The position numbers and the translations under genes were made by a program. This document shows, piece by piece, positions 3,647 through 40,828 of a stretch of DNA of 47,551 nucleotides (the stretch's first letter is position 1; every line of letters begins with the position of its first letter). This stretch comes from Natronosalvus halobius (GTDB lineage Archaea > Halobacteriota > Halobacteria > Halobacteriales > Natrialbaceae): the NCBI RefSeq assembly GCF_024138145.1, contig NZ_CP099999.1, forward strand, positions 1-47,551, read 5' to 3'. The notes beneath the pieces are model-generated. The model was not told where the DNA came from, ran no database searches, and was given only the letters and a program-made list of their open reading frames with translations.

Positions 3647-4051
3647 ATGGCACAGAGTCAAGCCGACCGACCCGAATGGCTGCCAGACGAGTACGACGCA
3701 GACGCATCGCTACGCGAACGGCTTCCGATCATGGCCGAGATTGACGGCGGTATCGAACTGCACGTCGGCGACGAGCGCGGCATCGTCGAGATCGTCGGTG
3801 AGCCACTCGAGCTGACCGAGAACGCCGCTGAGTGTTACACGCTGAGAACCGGATCGGCCTCGAAATGGCGCCAGGGAGTCTGGCGGAACGAGATCGTCGT
3901 TCCGAAGGAACACGAGGCCGTGTTGAAATCGGTCGACCCGGAGCAGAGCTTCGAGGACTATGAACGGACGAAGAAAACCGAACTTCGAGGCGTCGACGTT
4001 CGGATTTACGGCATCGATCACGAGCGGCTCGGGCGCGAGGTGCCGGCATGA
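3647..4051 (+). CDS. Hypothetical protein, first gene of the small-gene operon
   Basis: This 134-residue acidic soluble protein starts about 28 bp after a TATA-like palindrome. It has a predicted beta-rich middle (GGIELHVGDERGIVEIVGE) and ends GREVPA. It shows no metal-binding cysteines or membrane segment. The stop overlaps the next start by four bases (ATGA), the arrangement used throughout this operon. I do not recognise the family. Confidence 0.75.
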   Translation: MAQSQADRPEWLPDEYDADASLRERLPIMAEIDGGIELHVGDERGIVEIVGEPLELTENAAECYTLRTGSASKWRQGVWRNEIVVPKEHEAVLKSVDPEQSFEDYERTKKTELRGVDVRIYGIDHERLGREVPA

Positions 4052-4437
4052 GCCTCCCTGACCCCGAAACGACGGAGTGCGAACCGATCGAGATCGACGA
4101 CGACGAAGTCCTCGAGCAGATTCCCGAGGACAACCCGTTCAAGGCGGCGATCGTCGAGATGAAAGACGACGACGCGTCGTGGACCGAGGTGTTGGAACGC
4201 CTCGAGGACGCGTACAACCCGATCGACAAGACGGCCTACAAGGAATCGATGGTCCGAATGCCTGAGTACCGGATTCGGGCGGTCGTCCACTGCGAGCAAT
4301 CGACCTCTGGAGAGCGTTACGAGTCGTTCACCCACGCAGACGAGACCGAAGACGCGGCTATCGAGTGGGCCGAATCAAAACACGACGTTCTGCGCGTCGA
4401 ATCGACCGAGAAGGTCGGAATGGTGACCGTCGGATGA
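4048..4437 (+). CDS. Hypothetical protein of the small-gene operon (129 aa)
   Basis: The N-terminal half is acidic and helical (EDNPFKAAIVEMKDDDASWTEVLERLEDAY). The C-terminal half looks like a small alpha/beta unit (YRIRAVVHCEQ ... DAAIEWAESKHDVLRVESTEKVGMV), a pattern typical of small haloarchaeal modules that repeat strand-helix-strand. Start and stop overlap both neighbours, so translation is probably coupled. Function unknown. Confidence 0.75.
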   Translation: MSLPDPETTECEPIEIDDDEVLEQIPEDNPFKAAIVEMKDDDASWTEVLERLEDAYNPIDKTAYKESMVRMPEYRIRAVVHCEQSTSGERYESFTHADETEDAAIEWAESKHDVLRVESTEKVGMVTVG

Positions 4438-4742
4438 GCGACTTCGAACGAGACGACGTCGACCGAATCGAGGAGTTCTACCGCCTCGAGCACGCCAGCG
4501 GGTGCGTCTACGTCGGTCGGCGCGGCATTACGGCCATCAAAGCCGCCGACTTCGACGAGGACGGCACGATCTTCCCGCTGGGGTACACCAAATCGGAACT
4601 CGAGCGGAAGGTCAACAATCAGGGACTCGAGTCCGTCTCTCGAGAGGACGTCCCCGACCGCGCAGAGAACTACCTCGAGCACCAGTTCTACGCTCGGGCT
4701 GTGAATCTGGGGATGGCCGATATCGCGGGTGAAACGGCATGA
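4434..4742 (+). CDS. Hypothetical protein of the small-gene operon (102 aa)
   Basis: The ATG at 4434 overlaps the upstream stop and gives a 102-residue product beginning MSDFERDDVD. An upstream in-frame start at 4365 would lie inside the previous gene. The middle carries a short beta segment (GCVYVGRRGITAIKA) and the end is helical. No known motif was seen. The stop overlaps the next ATG. Confidence 0.72.
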   Translation: MSDFERDDVDRIEEFYRLEHASGCVYVGRRGITAIKAADFDEDGTIFPLGYTKSELERKVNNQGLESVSREDVPDRAENYLEHQFYARAVNLGMADIAGETA

Positions 4743-4981
4743 GCTTCGAACGCGTCCCCGACGAGCTGCGGAAGAACAACCTCGCCATCCGCTGCATGAT
4801 CGGCGAGGACGACCCCGACCTCTGTGACGGCTGGCTGACGAGCGTCGAGATCGACCCCTCGGACGTCCGAGTGGACGGCTACGACCGACTCCGCTTCGCG
4901 GAGCACGTCCCGACCGAGTGTCCGGAATGTGGCGATCGCGTCCTCGAGTACAACGGTGTGGAGGTGACGTTTCACGCATGA
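4739..4981 (+). CDS. Small zinc-ribbon-like protein (80 aa)
   Basis: The product begins MSFERVPDELRK and has a CPECGD knuckle near residue 60, plus two isolated cysteines near residues 19 and 29. This suggests a partial or single zinc knuckle. It overlaps both neighbours by four bases. Likely a small nucleic-acid- or protein-binding accessory factor, but nothing beyond the cysteine pair supports this. Confidence 0.7.
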   Translation: MSFERVPDELRKNNLAIRCMIGEDDPDLCDGWLTSVEIDPSDVRVDGYDRLRFAEHVPTECPECGDRVLEYNGVEVTFHA

Positions 4982-5172
4982 TCACCGACTTACTCGCCCA
5001 GCTGGCGTTTATTCACCGGGAGATACCGGAGGAAGAGTTCGACCTCGATACCGCTGTGGAAACGGCCATCGACACCGTTGAGAGAGACGTAACTGAGGAA
5101 GAACGCGACGAACTCGACAGTCTCCTCCCGGAGTGGCTAGAGCAGGGCGACGATGAGAGGGCCGCAGCATGA
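4978..5172 (+). CDS. Small acidic helical protein (64 aa)
   Basis: The start at 4978 overlaps the upstream stop (ATGA). The product (MITDLLAQLAFIHREIPEEE...) is almost entirely helical and strongly acidic, with about a third of residues Asp or Glu and no cysteines. The frame could extend upstream to 4918 but only through the previous gene. Function unknown. Confidence 0.65.
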   Translation: MITDLLAQLAFIHREIPEEEFDLDTAVETAIDTVERDVTEEERDELDSLLPEWLEQGDDERAAA

Positions 5173-5339
5173 GCCTCCACGAGTGCCGACGATGCGGGAA
5201 GGAAATCGCAACGAACTCCACGACGGCAGGCGCGTTCGCGATGCCGCCGACGCTGTACTGCGTCCACGACGGAGACGCCGTCGAGATGGATGTCGTTTCG
5301 GAGGCCGACCTCCTTGAGGAGGCGATCGTCCATGAGTAA
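5169..5339 (+). CDS. Small zinc-knuckle protein (56 aa)
   Basis: A 56-codon frame runs from ATG at 5169, overlapping the previous stop, to TAA at 5337-5339. The N-terminus MSLHECRRCGKEI carries a CxxC pair, and a third Cys and a His follow in LYCVHDGD, giving a possible C2CH zinc site. The next gene starts eight bases before its stop. Short but well supported by coupling and codon use. Confidence 0.65.
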   Translation: MSLHECRRCGKEIATNSTTAGAFAMPPTLYCVHDGDAVEMDVVSEADLLEEAIVHE

Positions 5340-5556
5340 CGAGACGGACCACTGGCAGGTCGTCGAAATCACAGGCGTCGGTATCGGCGAGATGTGGTTC
5401 GACGTCGTCGCCGACGAGCTCTCCCAGGACGTCGCCGAACGACGAGCCGGCCAGCGAGATCGCCACGTTGCCGTCCCAATGACCTACGACCCCGGTGAAC
5501 CAGTCGGAATCGGCCAGGTCGTCGACGACTACGACCGGGCGGTGATCGACCGATGA
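5332..5556 (+). CDS. Small hypothetical protein (74 aa)
   Basis: The ATG at 5332 gives MSNETDHWQVVEITGVGIGEMWFDVV and so on. The alternative start at 5290 lies inside the preceding gene and is not preferred. Predicted to be a small beta-rich domain with no cysteines. Its start is in an overlapping GAGTAA junction of a kind repeated along this operon. Function unknown. Confidence 0.68.
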   Translation: MSNETDHWQVVEITGVGIGEMWFDVVADELSQDVAERRAGQRDRHVAVPMTYDPGEPVGIGQVVDDYDRAVIDR

Positions 5557-8375: not shown

Positions 8376-8399
8376 GGGCGTTGGCTCGTTCTAACGCCC
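8376..8399 (+). terminator. Hairpin downstream of the small-gene operon
   Basis: GGGCGTT and AACGCCC form a perfect 7-bp stem around a 10-nt loop. It lies 137 bp after the operon stop and is not followed by a clear T-run, so terminator function is only probable. Confidence 0.35.
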
Positions 8400-8495
8400 C
8401 CGATCCTCAGACCGGAGAGCGTAGAGCTTGAGACCAACGCTGATCGACAGCAATGCAACCGATGCGACCTGGAGCGTAACATCAACTGGTGGCAT
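8391..8495 (-). CDS. Possible 34-aa single-helix membrane peptide
   Basis: The frame from ATG at 8495 encodes MPPVDVTLQVASVALLSISV and ends RSEDRGR: a single hydrophobic helix with a charged tail, as in many haloarchaeal micropeptides. It lies inside the direct-repeat pair. An upstream ATG at 8585 would give 64 residues. No clear promoter was found, so the call is tentative. Confidence 0.3.
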   Translation of the reverse strand: MPPVDVTLQVASVALLSISVGLKLYALRSEDRGR

Positions 8496-8696
8496 AGATG
8501 TGTCTATGCGCTTGGTCAACCGTCCTCCGAGAATGCTTAGTTCCGGAGAGGGCTGACGTTGCGCGGAAGTTTGGTCTGCTCCCAACCCTATAAAACTACC
8601 TAGGTTGCGTGATTGAAACGTAGAATACGCGCGCAGGACGCGCAGCCCCTCACGGCAGTGCTCGAAATCTTAAAAGAGAACCACCCCCACCCTAGA

Positions 8697-8768: not shown

Positions 8769-8893
8769 TCGACGTAATCAGCACAATAGCGCTTAGCTAC
8801 AGCACCGAACAGTTCACGAACCACTTCACGATTCTCGTGTACGCAGCGATAATCGCGATGTTCATCGGAGCGGTCCTTCAACTGTTCCGATAG
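8765..8893 (+). CDS. 42-aa single-pass membrane peptide
   Basis: This ATG frame of 42 codons ends TAG. After a polar N-terminal third comes a hydrophobic helix (ILVYAAIIAMFIGAVLQLF). It overlaps a 13-codon leader and sits behind a clear TATA box. Micropeptides like this often regulate membrane complexes or act as toxins, but the sequence gives no specific clue. Confidence 0.5.
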   Translation: MIDVISTIALSYSTEQFTNHFTILVYAAIIAMFIGAVLQLFR

Positions 8894-31714: not shown

Positions 31715-32758
31715 ATGATTACCGATCACGCGGTCCTTCAGCCGGACGTCCAGCCCGATCGGGAGGTGGTCGTCCATCGCGACGGCGAAATCTCACACCT
31801 TACCTCGGTGCTCGAGCCCCTCACACACGGCTACTCCACCACGGGCGCGTTCATCCACGGGCCATCGGGTGCCGGGAAGACCTGCACGACGCGCTGTGTC
31901 CTCGAGGACCTCGAGCGCGTCGCCGGCATCCCGGTCGCGTTTCTCGATTGTCTCTCGATCCATAGCCGGAGAGACGTTCTGAATCACGTCCTCGCCGAGC
32001 TGGGCGATGGGTCGACACTCGAACGCCGGTCGGTCGGCCCGGCCGATATGGCCGTCCGCATTCGCGAAATCGTCGACGAACCGACCGTCGTTGTCCTCGA
32101 CGAGGCCGACCAGATCGACGAGCTTCGCGTGCTCCAGGAACTGTACGAAGTGCCGGATCTGACACCGATTCTCATCGCCAACCAGCCCTGGAGAAAGTTC
32201 GACCGGGCCGATATCCGTCTGGATTCGAGAATCGGGTCGTTTCCGAGCATCGAGTTCGACGCCTACGACGAGTCGGAGTTGGTGGAGATCCTTCGAGAGC
32301 GCGCGTCGATCGGCCTCGAGCCCGGCGCCGTCGAGGCGGGTGTGCTCGAGTATATCTCCGAGTGTGCGGAGCGAAACGACTGTCGCCGGGCGATTTCGTT
32401 GCTTTTCGAGTCGGTGAAGCGGGCGCGTCGCGATGGTGAGGAGTCGGTCACACGCGCGGTCGTCGACGCCTCCAGGACGGATGCCGATCGCCAGGTGATT
32501 CGGTCGCGGTTGTCGTCGCTCTCGAGACAGCAACGGATCGGCCTCGAGGCGATTGGGGAAGTCGGCCCGGCGACGTCGACGCCGTTGCACGAGTGTTACG
32601 AGAAGCGCTCCGATGATCCGGTCGGGAAACAGGCGTTCCGGAAGTGGCTGCCGAAGTTTGCTGAATACGAGTTAATCGAAAAACACGAGAAGAAGGTCGC
32701 GCCCGAATACGAGATCCGAGAGATAGTGCTCGAAGAACTCGGCGCCCAGGTGGCGTAG
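31715..32758 (+). CDS. cdc6: Orc1/Cdc6-type replication initiator (AAA+ ATPase)
   Basis: This 347-residue AAA+ protein carries Walker A GPSGAGKT (49-56), Walker B VVVLDEAD (~125-132), a sensor-I-like strand (TPILIANQPW) and a lid region. Its C-terminal winged helix (~270-347, QQRIGLEAIGEVGPATST ... YELIEKHEKK) would bind origin DNA. Archaeal Orc1/Cdc6 proteins mark origins and load MCM. This copy is shorter than chromosomal ones (about 400 aa), as is common on plasmids and viruses. Together with the nearby MCM it suggests element-specific replication. It converges with a repressor-like gene three bases downstream. Confidence 0.9.
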   Translation: MITDHAVLQPDVQPDREVVVHRDGEISHLTSVLEPLTHGYSTTGAFIHGPSGAGKTCTTRCVLEDLERVAGIPVAFLDCLSIHSRRDVLNHVLAELGDGSTLERRSVGPADMAVRIREIVDEPTVVVLDEADQIDELRVLQELYEVPDLTPILIANQPWRKFDRADIRLDSRIGSFPSIEFDAYDESELVEILRERASIGLEPGAVEAGVLEYISECAERNDCRRAISLLFESVKRARRDGEESVTRAVVDASRTDADRQVIRSRLSSLSRQQRIGLEAIGEVGPATSTPLHECYEKRSDDPVGKQAFRKWLPKFAEYELIEKHEKKVAPEYEIREIVLEELGAQVA

Positions 32759-32761
32759 GAC

Positions 32762-33043
32762 TCAGTCGTCTTCGTCGTCTTCCGGTTCGACGTCGTTCGC
32801 GTCGACTTTCCCCTGGAGATATCCCCGGCCCAGGTCCGTGATCCGATAGTGAGTCGTGTAATCGTCGTCGGGTTCGATGAAACCGCGTGACTCGAGTTCG
32901 GGAATCGCTCGCGTAATCGACGACCTCGATACGTCGAGTTCTATGTCCAGCACGGATACCGGCGCCGCGATGTCCTTTTCCTCAAGGAACTCAAGGACGG
33001 GATTACTGGCTTTATTCATCCAGAGACCCCGCTTGCGGCGCAT
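32762..33043 (-). CDS. PhiH-repressor-like winged-helix regulator
   Basis: This 93-residue protein (MRRKRGLWMNKASNPVLEFL) shows the helix-turn-helix pattern VSVLDIELDVSRSSITRAIP, then a wing (ELESRGFIEPDDDYTTHYRI) and an acidic tail. The opening RGLWM and ILE/VLEFLEE pattern matches the winged-helix family that includes the repressor of halovirus PhiH. Such proteins keep prophage or plasmid genes silent. It faces the structured RNA region at 33.1-34.1 kb across a TATA-containing gap, so it may control those transcripts. Confidence 0.75.
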   Translation of the reverse strand: MRRKRGLWMNKASNPVLEFLEEKDIAAPVSVLDIELDVSRSSITRAIPELESRGFIEPDDDYTTHYRITDLGRGYLQGKVDANDVEPEDDEDD

Positions 33044-33102
33044 TATCGGAGGGTGCCATGCTGTGCACTTGTTTCATCCGATTTATTAGCACGTAGACAA
33101 AA

Positions 33103-33125
33103 ATATGAGCCATACTGACTCATAT
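33103..33125. promoter_or_regulatory. Inverted repeat between repressor gene and RNA candidate
   Basis: ATATGAG (33103-33109) and CTCATAT (33119-33125) form a perfect 7-bp inverted repeat with a 9-bp spacer. It lies between the start of the PhiH-like repressor gene and the promoter of the first RNA candidate, a natural operator position. Confidence 0.5.
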
Positions 33126-33163
33126 CTACGCCAAGGTTTAAGTGTACCGGACATTAACAGGGT

Positions 33164-33840: not shown

Positions 33841-34135
33841 AGGACGTCCTTGAGTCAGACACACGTCAGACAGCCTGTGTCTAGAGGTTTTAAGACGGTC
33901 GGATACGTCCGAACACAGTATGGACTGACGAAAGCGCAAAACCCGAAGAAGTGGGTTCCACAGATCCGAGGTGCGACCAACACCGATGATGGATCTGTGT
34001 CGTTCGGTATTCACTTCTTCGCTGGAATGGGAGTTAAGTCTATCGGAGAGAGCCACTGCTCTGTCCCTTCCCTTTCTGGCGACGTCGTCGTTCGGCGTCG
34101 GGTCAGCACACCAGCTCGACTCGAATGAACGATAC
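33841..34135 (+). ncRNA. Candidate structured RNA with long nested hairpin
   Basis: CGAAGAAGTG (33944-33953) pairs with CACTTCTTCG (34012-34021), ten pairs. Inside it CACAGATCC (33959-33967) pairs with GGATCTGTG (33991-33999), nine pairs, and within that GGTG/CACC (33970-33984). A further hairpin AGAGC-CACT-GCTCT follows near 34051-34064. Upstream are AGACACA/TGTGTCT (33857-33882), a palindrome AGGACGTCCT (33841-33850) and a TATA-like GGTTTTAAG (33886-33894). The covering frame 33769-34128 has weak codon bias. Strand and exact ends are uncertain. Confidence 0.5.
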
Positions 34136-34188: not shown

Positions 34189-34451
34189 TTCTAGAAGGGT
34201 CCTGCCTTTCTAGAAAGGGCAGTCTTCTAGAAAACCCCGTCCTTTCTAGAAAGGCAGGTCTTCTAGAAAGGCAGCCGGTTTCTAGAATACCTACCAGAAA
34301 CCAGTTAGGAAACCAGGTTTTCCACAGGATGAGTCACCAATTTGAAGATAGAACCGGACCGGAACGAACGGCAGTATATAAAGGAGGGTCTGAAAACGCC
34401 TCTAGAAGCGCGAGGTTTCTAGAATCTAGAAAGGCTACTAGGATTCTAGAA
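34189..34451. repeat. TTCTAGAA iteron array, candidate replication origin and operator
   Basis: Eight perfect TTCTAGAA palindromes start at 34189, 34208, 34225, 34244, 34261, 34280, 34417 and 34444, and 7-of-8 copies at 34400 and 34424. The first six alternate 19, 17, 19, 17, 19 bp, that is three 36-bp units with two sites each. Several extend to CCTTTCTAGAAAGG. A TATA box (TATATAAA, 34375-34382) sits between the two groups, so the second group overlaps the transcription start of the next operon. This fits iterons that also repress the downstream rep/MCM genes. Confidence 0.75.
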
Positions 34452-34510
34452 AGCAGATCGCTACTAGAGGGATATCTCCAGTCGATCCAGATGAAACGGG
34501 GGTTCTGTCA

Positions 34511-35128
34511 ATGACCTCCCGGAAAGGGCGGAAGACCTGGGCCGGGGAACTCCCGGTGGAGACTCGCAACGCCATCAAAAAGGAGGCGAAAGAGACCGGC
34601 AAACCGCAGTGGCAGGTCGTTGACCAGGCCGTCCGTCTGGCTCTCGGTCTCGACGAGGGTTCCACCGAAGCGGCTCTCGAACGCCAGCTCGAGGAACACC
34701 GAGAAGAGGCCGAGGACTTCAAGGAGAAAGCCGAAGAGTTCTCCTCGAAGGCCGAAGACCGTCTCGAGAACATCGACCGGCTCCAGGAACAACTCGAGGA
34801 GATTCGCGAATCGAAAGCGAGCTACCGCGAGCAACTGGACGAGGTTCTCGATTCACTCCTCGAGAACCCGAACACGACGGTCATGGCGTACTCGTCCGAG
34901 ATCCAGCAAGCAGCGATCGACGAGTACGGGCGTGATACGAAGGACAATATCTCCCGCGTAGTGGCTGACCTTCACGATCGGCGCGATAAACGTGACCTTC
35001 AACTGGAGGATCACCGCTTCAAGCGCTCCAGCATGAACGTCTCGACTAATCAATCTGCGACCGCTGACGGTGGAAACAACACGCCGAACCTTCGAATCCT
35101 CTCTGACGAGGATGGTGATTCTGAATGA
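34511..35128 (+). CDS. Ribbon-helix-helix plus coiled-coil protein, candidate iteron-binding Rep
   Basis: This 205-residue protein starts with an RHH-like segment (~12-47, GELPVETRNAIKKEAKETGK then PQWQVVDQAVRLALGL). A long acidic coiled coil follows (~52-115), then a helical domain (~118-160) and a polar tail. An RHH dimer reads short palindromes, and 10 TTCTAGAA sites lie directly upstream, so it is the best candidate to bind them. Its stop overlaps the MCM start, so both are made together. Role as origin-binding protein and autorepressor is inferred from this layout. Confidence 0.75.
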   Translation: MTSRKGRKTWAGELPVETRNAIKKEAKETGKPQWQVVDQAVRLALGLDEGSTEAALERQLEEHREEAEDFKEKAEEFSSKAEDRLENIDRLQEQLEEIRESKASYREQLDEVLDSLLENPNTTVMAYSSEIQQAAIDEYGRDTKDNISRVVADLHDRRDKRDLQLEDHRFKRSSMNVSTNQSATADGGNNTPNLRILSDEDGDSE

Positions 35129-37194
35129 GTGCCCAACAAATCCCCGAAGTAATGGAATCGTGCGAAGAATTCCTCAAGAAGTACTACAAAGAGGAAGTGC
35201 TTCGCCTAGCGAACCGGTTCCCAAATGACCAAAAGTCGCTGGTGATCGACTGGAACGACCTGTTCAAGTACGACCCCCGGCTCGCTGACGACTATCTCGA
35301 CCAGCCGAAGATCGTCCTCCGGCACCTCAAGGAGGCGCTCCGGACCTACGACCTCCCGGCAGATATCGACCTCTCGGCCGCGAACGTACGCATCGAGAAC
35401 CTCGAGGACGCCCGGACGGTCCACATCAACGAGTACCGACCCGAGCAGATCGGCCAGGCACTCGGGATTCGCGGCCAGGTCACACAGCTATCGGAACCGA
35501 AACCGCAGATCGATGAGGCGGCTTTCGAGTGTACGCTCTGTGGAACACTTCACCGGATTCCACAGTCCGGCGGCGACGAGATGCAGGAACCGCACGAATG
35601 CCAGGGCTGTGAGCGACAGGGTCCGTTCCAACTGAACACCGAGCAGACGGTCTTCCAGCAGTATCAGGTCGCACGTCTCGAGATGCCGCCTGAGCGCTCG
35701 AACACCGGGCAGGCACACATCGACGTCCGAATGTACGACGACCTCGCCGGGAAGTCTCTCGAGGGCAACGAACGCCTCACGGCGAACGGTATCCTGTCGA
35801 TTGATGACGACGACCTCGAATCGCGTACGTTCGACTACCACCTCGAGACCGAGGGCGGATCGTTCGAGATTGAGGACGGCGGTTTCGAGGACATCGACTA
35901 CGAGGAACACATGGACGACATTCGGGCGATCGCCGAGAGCGGCGATCCGATCGGGATGCTCGTCGACTCACTGGCGCCGCAACTCTCTCGGGATGAGCGC
36001 CTCGAGCAGATCATGACCGCGATGGTCCTCCAGCTCGTCGGCGCCGGTCGGAAGGACCTCGAGGACGGGCCGACCTTCCGGGGCGACTTCCACGTCCTCA
36101 TCCTCTCGGACCCCGGAATGGGAAAGTCCGAACTCCTGGGCGAGGTCGAAGATATCTCGCCGATCGGCCGCTACGTCAGCGGGAAGGGGCTCTCGAAAGC
36201 CGGCGCGACGGCCGCTGCCGTGAAAGACGACTTCGGCGGCTCGGAGTACACGCTCAAGGCTGGTATCCTGGTCCTCGCGAACGACGGAATCGCGTGCATT
36301 GACGAGATCGACAAGGTCCAGCCGAACGCCGTCCAGGCGATGCACGGGGCGCTCGAGCGTCAGCGCGTCGACGTCATGAAGGCGGGCATCTCCTCGAAGC
36401 TCCCGGCGAAGACGTCGCTACTGGCGGCCGGAAATCCGAAGTACGGCCGGTTCGACCGCCACCAGCCGATCTCGGAACAGATAGACCTCGCACCATCGCT
36501 CATGTCCCGATTCGACCTCATGTTCATGATGTCGGACACGCCCGACGAGGAACGCGACCGCGAGGTCGCCGAACACATCGTCCAGTCGTGGGACGAGGCC
36601 GCGAGATCGGCCTACCGTGGCGAAGGCGACGGCACGATCGTCGAGCGAGAGATTCCGACCGAAGTCCTCCGGGCGTACATCGCCTACGCGAAAGAGACGG
36701 TCAAACCGGTATTCGCGAATGCAGATATCTGGAACCGGTTCATCGACCACTACGTAAAGATCCGATCGAAGGGCGTCGACGAGGACTCCCCCGTCCCGGT
36801 GACGGCCCGCAAACTTCAGGCCTTCCTCCGACTCGCGGAAGCGTCGGCTCGAGCTCGTCTCTCGGACACGATCGAACACGAGGACGTCACGCGGTCGATC
36901 GAACTCATCATGCGGTCGCTCAACGACGTCGGAATCGACCCCGAAAGCGGAGAGTTCGACGCCGATATTGTCGAAGCAGGCACCTCGAAAAGCCAGCGCG
37001 ACCGCGTGAAAGGCGTGAAGGCGTGCATCCTGGACGTCGAGGAAGAGTACGACAGGGGCGCACCCATCGACGTGGTCCTCGAGCGCTGTAATTCGATCGG
37101 CATCGACACGGACAAAGCCGAGTCTGAAATCGAGAAACTGAAACAGAAAGGCGAACTCTACGAACCGTCTGAGGGGGTCTTCCTAACTACCTGA
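35125..37194 (+). CDS. mcm: MCM replicative helicase
   Basis: This 689-residue AAA+ helicase has an N-terminal domain (to ~250) with a zinc site formed by CTLCGTLH (~136) and CQGC (~159). Walker A DPGMGKSELL lies at ~331, Walker B ACIDEIDKV at ~389, sensor 1 AAGNPKYGRFD at ~434 and the arginine finger SRFDLMF at ~461. A C-terminal winged helix starts at ~630. All catalytic parts are intact and length matches archaeal MCMs. It unwinds DNA at the fork. Several haloarchaeal plasmids and viruses carry their own MCM. Here it follows an iteron array and an RHH protein in one operon. Confidence 0.96.
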   Translation: MSAQQIPEVMESCEEFLKKYYKEEVLRLANRFPNDQKSLVIDWNDLFKYDPRLADDYLDQPKIVLRHLKEALRTYDLPADIDLSAANVRIENLEDARTVHINEYRPEQIGQALGIRGQVTQLSEPKPQIDEAAFECTLCGTLHRIPQSGGDEMQEPHECQGCERQGPFQLNTEQTVFQQYQVARLEMPPERSNTGQAHIDVRMYDDLAGKSLEGNERLTANGILSIDDDDLESRTFDYHLETEGGSFEIEDGGFEDIDYEEHMDDIRAIAESGDPIGMLVDSLAPQLSRDERLEQIMTAMVLQLVGAGRKDLEDGPTFRGDFHVLILSDPGMGKSELLGEVEDISPIGRYVSGKGLSKAGATAAAVKDDFGGSEYTLKAGILVLANDGIACIDEIDKVQPNAVQAMHGALERQRVDVMKAGISSKLPAKTSLLAAGNPKYGRFDRHQPISEQIDLAPSLMSRFDLMFMMSDTPDEERDREVAEHIVQSWDEAARSAYRGEGDGTIVEREIPTEVLRAYIAYAKETVKPVFANADIWNRFIDHYVKIRSKGVDEDSPVPVTARKLQAFLRLAEASARARLSDTIEHEDVTRSIELIMRSLNDVGIDPESGEFDADIVEAGTSKSQRDRVKGVKACILDVEEEYDRGAPIDVVLERCNSIGIDTDKAESEIEKLKQKGELYEPSEGVFLTT

Positions 37195-37417
37195 CCGACC
37201 AGACTAGGGCGTTCCCAACCGACCGACTCTCGAGATCGCCGCTCTCCTCGAGCTGGGTCAGGCGCCGATGGGCGGTCGCTCGCTTGCATCCGACCTCTCG
37301 GGCGATGTCGCCGGTGGTCGGCAACTCCAACTCGGCAACGGCCTGACGGAAATCTACATCAGAATAAGCCACATTTGAATCAAACCGTCCTTTCTCGTCT
37401 CTCGAACGCTCATTCAT
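37187..37417 (-). CDS. Winged-helix DNA-binding protein (76 aa)
   Basis: MNERSRDEKGRFDSNVAYSD is a motif-like opening seen in a common haloarchaeal HTH family. TTGDIAREVGCKRATAHRRL is the helix-turn-helix, and a wing (ESGDLESRSVGNALVWSV) follows. It converges with MCM, overlapping its last codons by eight bases. It faces the leader of the long plus-strand operon across a ~90-bp gap containing promoters, so it probably regulates itself and/or that operon. Confidence 0.8.
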   Translation of the reverse strand: MNERSRDEKGRFDSNVAYSDVDFRQAVAELELPTTGDIAREVGCKRATAHRRLTQLEESGDLESRSVGNALVWSVR

Positions 37418-38839: not shown

Positions 38840-39279
38840 CCGACGACGAACACCCGCTCGAGGAACTCCTCACGAATGCCGACGAGGAACTCGAGCTCGA
38901 GGACGTCACAATCGACACGGAGCAGTTCCACGCCGATCTCGTCAAGGTGGCCCAGGCCGCTGAGTCGATCGAGACGCTCGCGACGGATCTCCGAGCGCTG
39001 CGGCGAAGCGGCCTGACCGACGAGGACGTGGTCGCGCTGCTCTACGGTCGGAACGCGAGTCTCAACAAGTCCACCATCGAGACGGCACTCGAGACCATCG
39101 ACGAGACGATCGCCGACTTCGAGAGCGGGAAGCGCAAACCGAAACGCGACCTCCTGGTCCGACTCGTTTACGACTTGTCGGGCCTGGGAAAACAGGAGAC
39201 CGAGACGGTCGTCGACGAGCTCGAGGCGCTGGTGGAGCGCTATGGGTACGACGACCTCCAGGAGGGCGACGATGTCTGA
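38836..39279 (+). CDS. Helical acidic protein (147 aa)
   Basis: The product (MTDDEHPLEELLTNADEELE and so on) is nearly all helix, with several regions of coiled-coil character. It contains a sequence resembling a small HTH (SGLTDEDVVALLYGRNASLN then KSTIETALETI). There are no cysteines. The next gene, a DNA methyltransferase, starts eight bases before its stop, so the pair may act together, for example as a methyltransferase partner or regulator. That link is positional only. Confidence 0.7.
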   Translation: MTDDEHPLEELLTNADEELELEDVTIDTEQFHADLVKVAQAAESIETLATDLRALRRSGLTDEDVVALLYGRNASLNKSTIETALETIDETIADFESGKRKPKRDLLVRLVYDLSGLGKQETETVVDELEALVERYGYDDLQEGDDV

Positions 39280-40828
39280 GGACTCCCTCACCGTCGTGGA
39301 TCTCTTCGCAGGCGCGGGCGGGATCTCGACGGGTGCCGTCGACGCCGCGAAGAACCTCGGCTACACGCCCGGCCAGGACTTCCATCTCACGGCGATCAAC
39401 CACAACGAACACGCGATCGCGACCCACGAGGAAAATCACCCGTGGGCCGACCACTACCATGCAAAGGTTGAGGCGATCTTCCCGCCAGACGTCGCCGAAC
39501 CCGGTACGGTCGACCTGCTGACGGCTGGGCCTTCGTGTACGCACTTTTCGAACGCGAGAGGCGGCAAGCCCGTGAAAGAACAGGAACGGGCGTCGCCGTG
39601 GCACGTCCTCCGGTGGGTCGAACTCCTGCGACCGAAACACCTGCTCATCGAGAACGTCGGCGAGCTCCGGTCGTGGGGGCCGGTCGAAGACGACGGGACA
39701 CCGTCGCGCGACGGCTCGATCTTCGTGCGTTGGGTCGAGATGCTTCAGGCACTGGGCTACACCGTCGTCCGTGACGACAAAGACCGCTACGGCGTCAAAC
39801 TCCGGGCCGCCGACTACGGCGACCCGACGACGCGACAGCGACTGTTCGTAATCGCGTCACGAACGAACCGCCCAACTCCACCACAACCAACCCACTCGAG
39901 CGACCCGGCCGACGACCTCGAGGACTGGGTGCCAGCGAGCGAGATAATCGACTGGAGCGACCGGGGCGAGTCGATGTTCACCCGCTCGAAGGCGCTCGCA
40001 AGCAAGACGATGGACCGCATCGCGAAGGGCATCCGCGACCACTGTGACGACCGACTGGCGCCCTACGCGGCGGCACTCGAGCGAATGGACGAGGCCGATA
40101 TATACGCACTCCAGGACGACGTCGTCCCGATCGAAGAGATCGAGACGGCGATAGACGAGCGGACGGAACCGTTCCTGGTTCGTGGCGAGGTCGCCGTCGA
40201 CGACGAACCAGCGTCGACGCCGATGGTGATGGGCCAGCACGGCGGAGCGTACCCACGCGATGCGGACACGGAACCGGTGTCGACCATCACGACACGCGGC
40301 GCTATCCACTTCATCGAAGCCCAGGCGTTCGTCCTGCCACGGAACGGTTCGGCTCGAGGCAAGCACTCGAACCCGGCCTACAATCCCGACGAGAGGCCGT
40401 TTCACACGGTGACGGCCCGTAATCACGACGGTCGGCTGTTCTCGCCGTTCCTGGTCCAGTACAACGGCACGCCAGAACACTCGGTGAAGTCGATCGACGA
40501 CCCGCTCCCGACGCTCACCAAACGCGCTCGGTACGCGCTGGCCGATCCGGAAGTCTACCCGTTCGGTATCGATCTCCGATACCGGATGCTCGACCCGCCG
40601 GAGACCAAACAAGCGCAGGGGTTCCCGGCGGACTACGAGATCACGGGCGACACGAAGAAAGACCGCCGCGCACAGATCGGGAACGCGGTTCCGGTCGGGA
40701 TGGCCCGAGCGCTCTGTGAGCACATTCTCGCGACGGAGGCGCCGACGCTGTCGACCTACGGCGCCGGGTTCCCCGACGACGCCGACGTGGAGATCCCGGC
40801 GTACGAGGAGGTGGTCTCGGATGACTAA
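39272..40828 (+). CDS. C5-cytosine DNA methyltransferase
   Basis: This 518-residue enzyme has motif I DLFAGAGGIS (10-19), the catalytic loop GPSCTHFS with nucleophile Cys89 (GPSC replaces the usual GPPC), motif VI ENV (127-129) and motif VIII TRQRLFVIA (187-195). C-terminal motifs IX/X are QAQGFPADY and QIGNAVPVGMARAL. It transfers a methyl group from S-adenosylmethionine to C5 of cytosine in DNA. No restriction endonuclease is nearby, so it is an orphan, probably for self-protection or regulation. Target sequence cannot be read from the gene. Starts at ATG 39272, overlapping the previous stop. Confidence 0.93.
   Translation: MSEDSLTVVDLFAGAGGISTGAVDAAKNLGYTPGQDFHLTAINHNEHAIATHEENHPWADHYHAKVEAIFPPDVAEPGTVDLLTAGPSCTHFSNARGGKPVKEQERASPWHVLRWVELLRPKHLLIENVGELRSWGPVEDDGTPSRDGSIFVRWVEMLQALGYTVVRDDKDRYGVKLRAADYGDPTTRQRLFVIASRTNRPTPPQPTHSSDPADDLEDWVPASEIIDWSDRGESMFTRSKALASKTMDRIAKGIRDHCDDRLAPYAAALERMDEADIYALQDDVVPIEEIETAIDERTEPFLVRGEVAVDDEPASTPMVMGQHGGAYPRDADTEPVSTITTRGAIHFIEAQAFVLPRNGSARGKHSNPAYNPDERPFHTVTARNHDGRLFSPFLVQYNGTPEHSVKSIDDPLPTLTKRARYALADPEVYPFGIDLRYRMLDPPETKQAQGFPADYEITGDTKKDRRAQIGNAVPVGMARALCEHILATEAPTLSTYGAGFPDDADVEIPAYEEVVSDD

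Follow-up and report, generated by a model that had tools for sequence, protein, structure and literature searches.

The analysed stretch of DNA, hereafter the window, comprises contig C3 in full (47,551 bp) and most likely represents a complete plasmid of a Natronosalvus species, with genes that include parA, an integrase, orc1/cdc6 and mcm. The genes and elements around the palindrome array are as follows (positions in the window).

31715–32758, + strand: gene of an orc1/cdc6 family initiator, upstream (TIGR02928, E 1.8e-41, below the cut-off)
32762–33043, − strand: small winged-helix regulator (PF25213, E 9e-7, below the cut-off); a winged-helix gene takes the same position in the N. amylolyticus plasmid
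34189–34287, no strand: distal cluster of six perfect TTCTAGAA sites (group 1), in steps of 19-17-19-17-19 (N. amylolyticus counterpart, 19-17-19-17-21-19)
34288–34321, no strand: conserved block ACCTACCAGAAACCAGTTAGGAAACCAGGT between group 1 and the promoter, identified from alignments
34375–34382, + strand: TATA box of the rhh-mcm operon, TATATAAA, identified from the sequence and from an alignment in which the N. amylolyticus plasmid keeps it
34400–34469, no strand: promoter-proximal cluster of six CTAG-centred sites (group 2; 34400, 34417, 34424, 34436, 34444 and 34462), in steps of 17-7-12-8-18
34417–34431, no strand: 15-bp odd-centred palindrome TTCTAGAATCTAGAA, 94 bp upstream of the rhh start codon
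34486–34502, + strand: single ORB-like sequence in the leader, TCCAGATGAAACGGGGG, with 2 mismatches; the N. amylolyticus counterpart TCCACTGGAAACGGAGG is perfect (0 mismatches) and unique in 100 kb of that plasmid
34511–35128, + strand: rhh, 205 aa, with RHH at about residues 8–45, a coiled coil at 53–118 and a C-terminal helical domain at 124–170
35125–37194, + strand: mcm, replicative helicase (Pfam MCM, E 1.2e-71), overlapping the end of rhh by 4 bases (ATGA)
37187–37417, − strand: small HTH protein, a conserved backbone gene convergent with mcm (69% identity in N. amylolyticus, 59% in Halopiger pHALXA03)

The rhh-mcm operon and its palindromes

The MCM encoded in the window is 61% identical to that of the N. 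amylolyticus plasmid and about 51% identical to haloarchaeal chromosomal MCM, and the ATGA overlap of rhh and mcm recurs in the N. amylolyticus plasmid and in a distant form of the operon (L013). The parA gene (63–905) lies about 13 kb away from the operon. An Rfam search of the window and the N. amylolyticus plasmid returned no RNA family. Between the small gene and the array, both plasmids contain a long stem-loop (33930–34034; N. amylolyticus plasmid 8392–8500) with compensatory changes (AAGAAGTGGG/CACTTCTTCG versus AAGAAATGGG/CATTTCTTCG), z-scores of about −2 and no Rfam match, which is possibly a regulatory RNA. The N. amylolyticus plasmid also carries, at 3913–5348, genes annotated as the exodeoxyribonuclease VII subunits xseA and xseB, unexpected on an archaeal plasmid.

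The rhh product was modelled by AlphaFold2 (pLDDT 77, 11 sequences) as an N-terminal RHH-like segment, in which helices are predicted at residues 16–29 and 33–44 after a short segment, followed by a coiled coil of 66 residues and, at the C-terminus, a helical domain. All of the highest-probability Foldseek matches were RHH proteins (VapB 1.00, AvtR 0.72, Arc 0.60 and CopG 0.51), with E-values above 0.5 that are not significant, as expected because the RHH domain is so short. Residues 4–43 matched phrog_3887, a transcriptional regulator (E 6.8e-4), and the Pfam search of the product found no RHH domain at the cut-off. With these caveats on the Pfam and Foldseek E-values, the protein is predicted to possess an RHH DNA-binding domain; the initial annotation had named an RHH protein as the first downstream gene, an assignment supported by structure comparison and not by Pfam at its cut-off.

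Upstream of this gene, 34189–34451 contains eight perfect TTCTAGAA sites (starting at 34189, 34208, 34225, 34244, 34261, 34280, 34417 and 34444) and two one-mismatch variants (CTCTAGAA at 34400 and ATCTAGAA at 34424). Two of the group 2 sites overlap to form the perfect 15-bp palindrome TTCTAGAATCTAGAA. Twelve CTAG tetramers fall between 34191 and 34467 (277 bp), with centre-to-centre steps of 19,17,19,17,19,[120],17,7,12,8,18, and the 120-bp gap between the two groups contains the TATA box. A recount thus agreed in full with the initial annotation on site numbers, coordinates, the 19-17-19-17-19 spacing and a TATA box placed between the groups.

The whole genome (3.85 Mb) contains TTCTAGAA 10 times, and 8 of these copies lie inside the 263-bp array (binomial P ~2e-32). 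CTAG had also been described as avoided in haloarchaeal genomes, and this holds here: 340 kb of chromosome give an observed/expected ratio of 0.44, and the window, with the array set aside, gives 0.43. The array, with twelve CTAG against about 0.1 expected, is exceptional, every other 280-bp stretch in the 400 kb sampled (twenty 20-kb pieces) holding at most three. Chance or compositional artefact as the origin of the array is ruled out by the TTCTAGAA and CTAG counts.

From archaeal promoter spacing relative to the TATA box, we infer that transcription starts at about 34403–34406, on the first group 2 site, which would place group 2 at and just past the start. Scans for sigma-70 promoters and terminators are uninformative for archaea. 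The block 34288–34321 (N. amylolyticus plasmid 8780–8810) includes two AAACCRG-like repeats and may be a site for another protein.

Conservation of geometry across rhh-mcm operons

The N. amylolyticus plasmid NZ_CP101158.1 (104,885 bp) has the array in the same place, upstream of rhh and mcm, with steps of 19,17,19,17,21,19,[120],17,7,12, so that both plasmids have a common layout including the 120-bp gap and the 17-7-12 run, with RHH proteins that are about 48% identical. In the aligned region, 89 of 93 octamer positions are identical, compared with 105 of 186 positions outside the octamers (Fisher P 3e-13). Among 391 Halobacteria genomes, closely spaced TTCTAGAA pairs occur in two, exactly those carrying this RHH protein. 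A search of 257 Gb of genomes and IMG/VR for the TTCTAGAA triple-site pattern gave bacterial or AT-rich viral repeats only and no haloarchaeal match. Four Bacillus/Neobacillus loci (L068, L069, L070 and L094), which are not haloarchaeal, carry 8 to 14 TTCTAGAA, mostly at an exact 18-bp pitch.

From cdc6 onwards, plasmid pHALXA03 of Halopiger xanaduensis matches the window in gene order (regulator, small gene, coiled-coil protein, mcm, HTH and C5 methylase following in turn), but the coiled-coil protein before mcm is a different one and there is no array. As this backbone exists without the array, it is the RHH gene that the array accompanies and neither orc1 nor mcm, and it was this comparison, together with that of the operon family below, that led us to choose the RHH protein and not Orc1 as the reader of the sites. 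Between a coiled-coil gene and mcm, other haloarchaeal mobile mcm loci (L113 3269–3482; L114 3284–3494; L115 3245–3500; L117 3269–3470; L014 960–1200) have a conserved intergenic element of GATTAGC and repeated CGCTCGCA-like words in 9–11-bp steps, a candidate for another helicase-linked array.

A profile built from three sequences and searched against the 391 Halobacteria genomes identified six further RHH-coiled-coil genes directly before an MCM gene (G391, G267, G257, G036, G205 and G279). Searches with the RHH protein in IMG/VR and phages, and with its distant L013 form in plasmids, gave no matches, and a protein scan of genome contigs confirmed no relatives. The RHH-coiled-coil homologues L186–L189 (G195, G044, G216 and G060), some with a longer N-terminus, have no mcm after them in the examined DNA.

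Five of the six further operons have palindromes of their own upstream, with letters unlike those of the window:

G267: TTGTACAA
G391: TTACACAA/TTGTGTAA, and TTGTGTA.TACACAA
G257 and G036: TGGCACC-A-GGTGCCA, with a near copy 19 bp on
G205: CCCTATA-A-TATAGGG

In G279, no such palindrome was found in the 375 bp of upstream sequence available. The G267 word TTGTACAA differs from TTCTAGAA by an exchange of C and G and is otherwise identical. Seven of the 8 rhh-mcm operons are preceded by a perfect palindrome of 15 bp built around one central base, versus 1 of 8 control mcm loci, which have another or no upstream protein, and the background rate of such palindromes is 0.15–0.30 per kb.

Position and spacing recur along with the palindrome itself. 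Counted from the rhh start codon, the 15-bp palindrome begins at −94 in the window, N. amylolyticus and G036 and at −93 in G257. Steps are shared as well: the window and N. amylolyticus have 7-12, G391 has 7-12-7, G257 and G036 have 19, and G267 has 7-12 at one end, 12-7 at the other and a 19. This spacing comparison is post hoc and carries no formal P-value or correction, the eight operons amount to at most six independent lineages, and the repeat statistic of G036 is weak alone (reached by 43 of 500 shuffles). A second, distal cluster is present in G257 (about −547, resembling a duplicate of the proximal cluster), G036 (about −1115) and G267 (about −949 to −522). The letters follow the RHH strand: G257 and G036 have the identical strand KNLRLTED and the identical operator, the window and N. 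amylolyticus, with one operator, have KTWAGELP and KLWSGEIP, and differing strands go with differing palindromes among family members. The CTAG cluster is absent from the distant operons, which have GTAC, ACAC, GGCACC or CCTATA palindromes instead; only N. amylolyticus keeps CTAG.

Candidate functions of the array

Our interpretation starts from what is seen in the sequence, namely the sites, their spacing and conservation, the gene overlap and the counterpart palindromes of distant rhh-mcm operons. The palindromes are best explained as binding sites of the RHH protein that serve autoregulation, a second array and coupling to copy number, and we consider this explanation as a whole reasonably probable. 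That the RHH protein reads the sites appears very probable from the comparisons above, and that it represses rhh-mcm is hardly less so. The RHH gene is the first of a replication-gene operon and has palindromic sites at its own promoter (34400–34469). An operator function had been proposed in the initial annotation; phylogenetic footprinting supports it well, and so does the agreement in layout among the distant operons.

In mechanistic terms, each 8-bp TTCTAGAA site would hold an RHH dimer, with dimers pairing across steps of 7 bp and of 12/17/19 bp; bound to the proximal cluster at the transcription start, they would repress rhh-mcm, and translation of mcm would be coupled to that of rhh via the ATGA overlap. 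The distal cluster with its RHH protein would form a second nucleoprotein array, which exceeds the need of a repressor and for which autoregulation alone may be an insufficient explanation. The long coiled coil could join the two clusters, looping the 120-bp promoter segment or pairing plasmid copies, although we rate such bridging at somewhat below an even chance. The supply of helicase, and possibly its loading at a nearby Orc1-dependent origin, would thereby be tied to copy number; the chances that the RHH array acts directly on initiation or copy number seem to us about balanced. On this account, CTAG supplies the specificity letters in this lineage, within a word so rare that the genome offers few decoys.

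The strongest alternative assigns initiation to the array itself: the RHH-coiled-coil protein would be an initiator that acts on the distal array as Rep does on iterons and, with Orc1 or on its own, brings in the MCM translated along with it, while the proximal cluster serves as operator. Iterons have a range of pitches that includes 17–19 bp, and the tandem 17/19-bp steps beside a replication gene agree with the 17–22-bp pitch of iteron-type plasmid origins. The distal cluster lies outside the promoter in the window, N. amylolyticus, G257, G036 and G267, mcm is translationally coupled to rhh, and tblastn with the window Orc1 finds no relative in the 4–10 kb around the other rhh-mcm operons. 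Against this reading, orc1/cdc6 lies nearby in both array-bearing plasmids, the G257 distal cluster resembles a duplicated proximal cluster, and no strongly AT-rich unwinding element adjoins the array, the best 60-bp stretch (33080–33139, 63% AT) being 1.1 kb away. We consider it unlikely, and slightly more so a bolder version in which the protein is a non-Orc archaeal initiator that loads MCM directly from a palindromic iteron array, and in which rhh-mcm plus array form a portable, self-contained replicon module whose letters evolve while the 7/12/19-bp geometry stays fixed. For the iteron origin proposed in the initial annotation, orc1/cdc6 upstream, mcm downstream and a distal cluster outside the promoter are compatible with it, whereas the single weak ORB-like box and the lack of a strong AT-rich element are not in its favour.

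An origin near the array is plausible. The cumulative GC skew peaks at about 29–30 kb, but this skew may track gene orientation and no origin was called from it. Like the Orc1/Cdc6-ORB origins of haloarchaea (PMC3528665, PMC4010727), the window has orc1/cdc6 (31715–32758) and mcm nearby and one ORB-like box; unlike them, it has no clear AT-rich element, and no inverted ORB pair with G-string flanking an AT-rich region was found near the array, ORB families of other sequence being possible. Nor was an ORB common to the window, N. amylolyticus and Halopiger plasmids found. On present evidence, the array is not assignable to the iteron or the ORB class of origin.

The initial annotation further suggested that methylation of CTAG could time initiation in the manner of GATC/SeqA. 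In such a scheme, m4C placed on the twelve CTAG by an orphan methylase of the host would gate binding of the initiator or of the RHH protein. The enrichment of CTAG fits this idea, and the host probably carries a CTAG methylase gene beside mutY, a PF01555 methylase that is 77–96% conserved in 7 of 8 genus genomes and, judged from its description, fits the CTAG orphan family of HVO_0794 (PMC6471742). Blow et al. proposed in 2016 that CTAG clusters, found upstream of orc1/cdc6, mark haloarchaeal origins (PMC4752239), and on the 294-kb contig C2 of the same genome an orc1/cdc6 gene is preceded by 5 CTAG in 205 bp (L145 1224–1432). That cluster is irregular, of the kind described by Blow et al., and adjoins ORB-like GGAAAC/GTTTCC and G-runs. 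The methylase encoded on the plasmid itself (C5 methylase, 39242–40828) is disfavoured as CTAG methylase, the array-less Halopiger plasmid having a C5 methylase in the same place.

Several observations make such a timer very improbable. Related rhh-mcm operons keep a similar geometry with GTAC, ACAC or GGCACC palindromes in place of the CTAG cluster, the sites are 8–15-bp words and not bare CTAG, just 1 of 6 main orc1 genes inspected on other replicons of the host has clustered CTAG, and no hemimethyl-binding protein is known. A study of Hfx. volcanii likewise questioned the role of CTAG clusters and could not generalise it (PMC5867850). The window resembles the clusters at haloarchaeal orc1/cdc6 (PMC4752239) in its dense CTAG by a replication gene and its probable CTAG-methylase host, and differs from them in that its CTAG sit inside larger conserved palindromes at fixed steps. 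As a general mechanism, methylation timing is unsupported, and for the window and N. amylolyticus plasmids it keeps a small probability. Since the relatives keep the geometry without CTAG, methylation would be at best an added layer in the window, where m4C could modulate RHH binding in this lineage because it sits in the major groove, which is read by the RHH strand.

A partition complex of RHH protein and split array, as in ParR/parC of plasmid R1, is a shade less probable still. In R1, two RHH-bound clusters flank a promoter that the centromere-binding protein represses (PMC5016525), and in the window two clusters of putative RHH sites likewise flank the promoter of the RHH operon, with the TATA box between them. 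Unlike the R1 system, the second gene of the window operon is MCM and no ParM/ParA motor is present, the steps are 17/19 bp, and each plasmid has its own parA elsewhere (in the window about 13 kb away; in N. amylolyticus also away from the rhh-mcm operon). Because the motor gene is absent, the operon is not a member of the partition family. Least probable of all is that the Orc1 of 31715–32758 recognises the palindromes as ORBs of an unusual kind. Its gene lies near the array, and haloarchaea have diverse Orc1-ORB pairs (PMC3528665), but the sites have no following G-string, a Halopiger plasmid with a similar cdc6-mcm backbone has no array, and equivalent palindromes occur at rhh-mcm operons with no Orc1 detected in the 4–10 kb around them.

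Relation to known plasmid control systems

Numerous plasmids and viruses of haloarchaea encode an MCM helicase themselves, and in the literature searched we found no account of how such a helicase is controlled. The rhh-mcm family revealed by the comparison, which spans several families of Halobacteria with matching palindromes in nearly every operon (7/8), opens the control of helicases on archaeal plasmids to direct tests and offers candidate orthogonal protein-operator pairs. The comparison also cautions that a dense CTAG cluster by a replication gene need not signal epigenetic timing, as in this family it is the geometry that is kept and CTAG that is exchanged. Distant relatives follow the spacing rules with other letters, so the methylation motif within the sites probably matters little.

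By analogy, the RHH array probably controls plasmid copy number as CopG does for RepB. As in the CopG-RepB system of pMV158 (PMC7848731), a replication operon opens with an RHH gene, whose own promoter carries sites; unlike that system, the second gene encodes an MCM helicase, the protein adds a long coiled coil and a C-terminal domain, and about twelve sites in two clusters take the place of one operator. The PrpA antitoxin of pMBL6842 is an RHH protein that represses its own promoter and binds iterons (PMC7848731). The window would resemble it in having a single RHH protein on both a promoter and a repeat array for the control of copy number, but PrpA is one partner of a toxin-antitoxin pair and acts in competition with a separate RepB, whereas the window operon contains no toxin gene.
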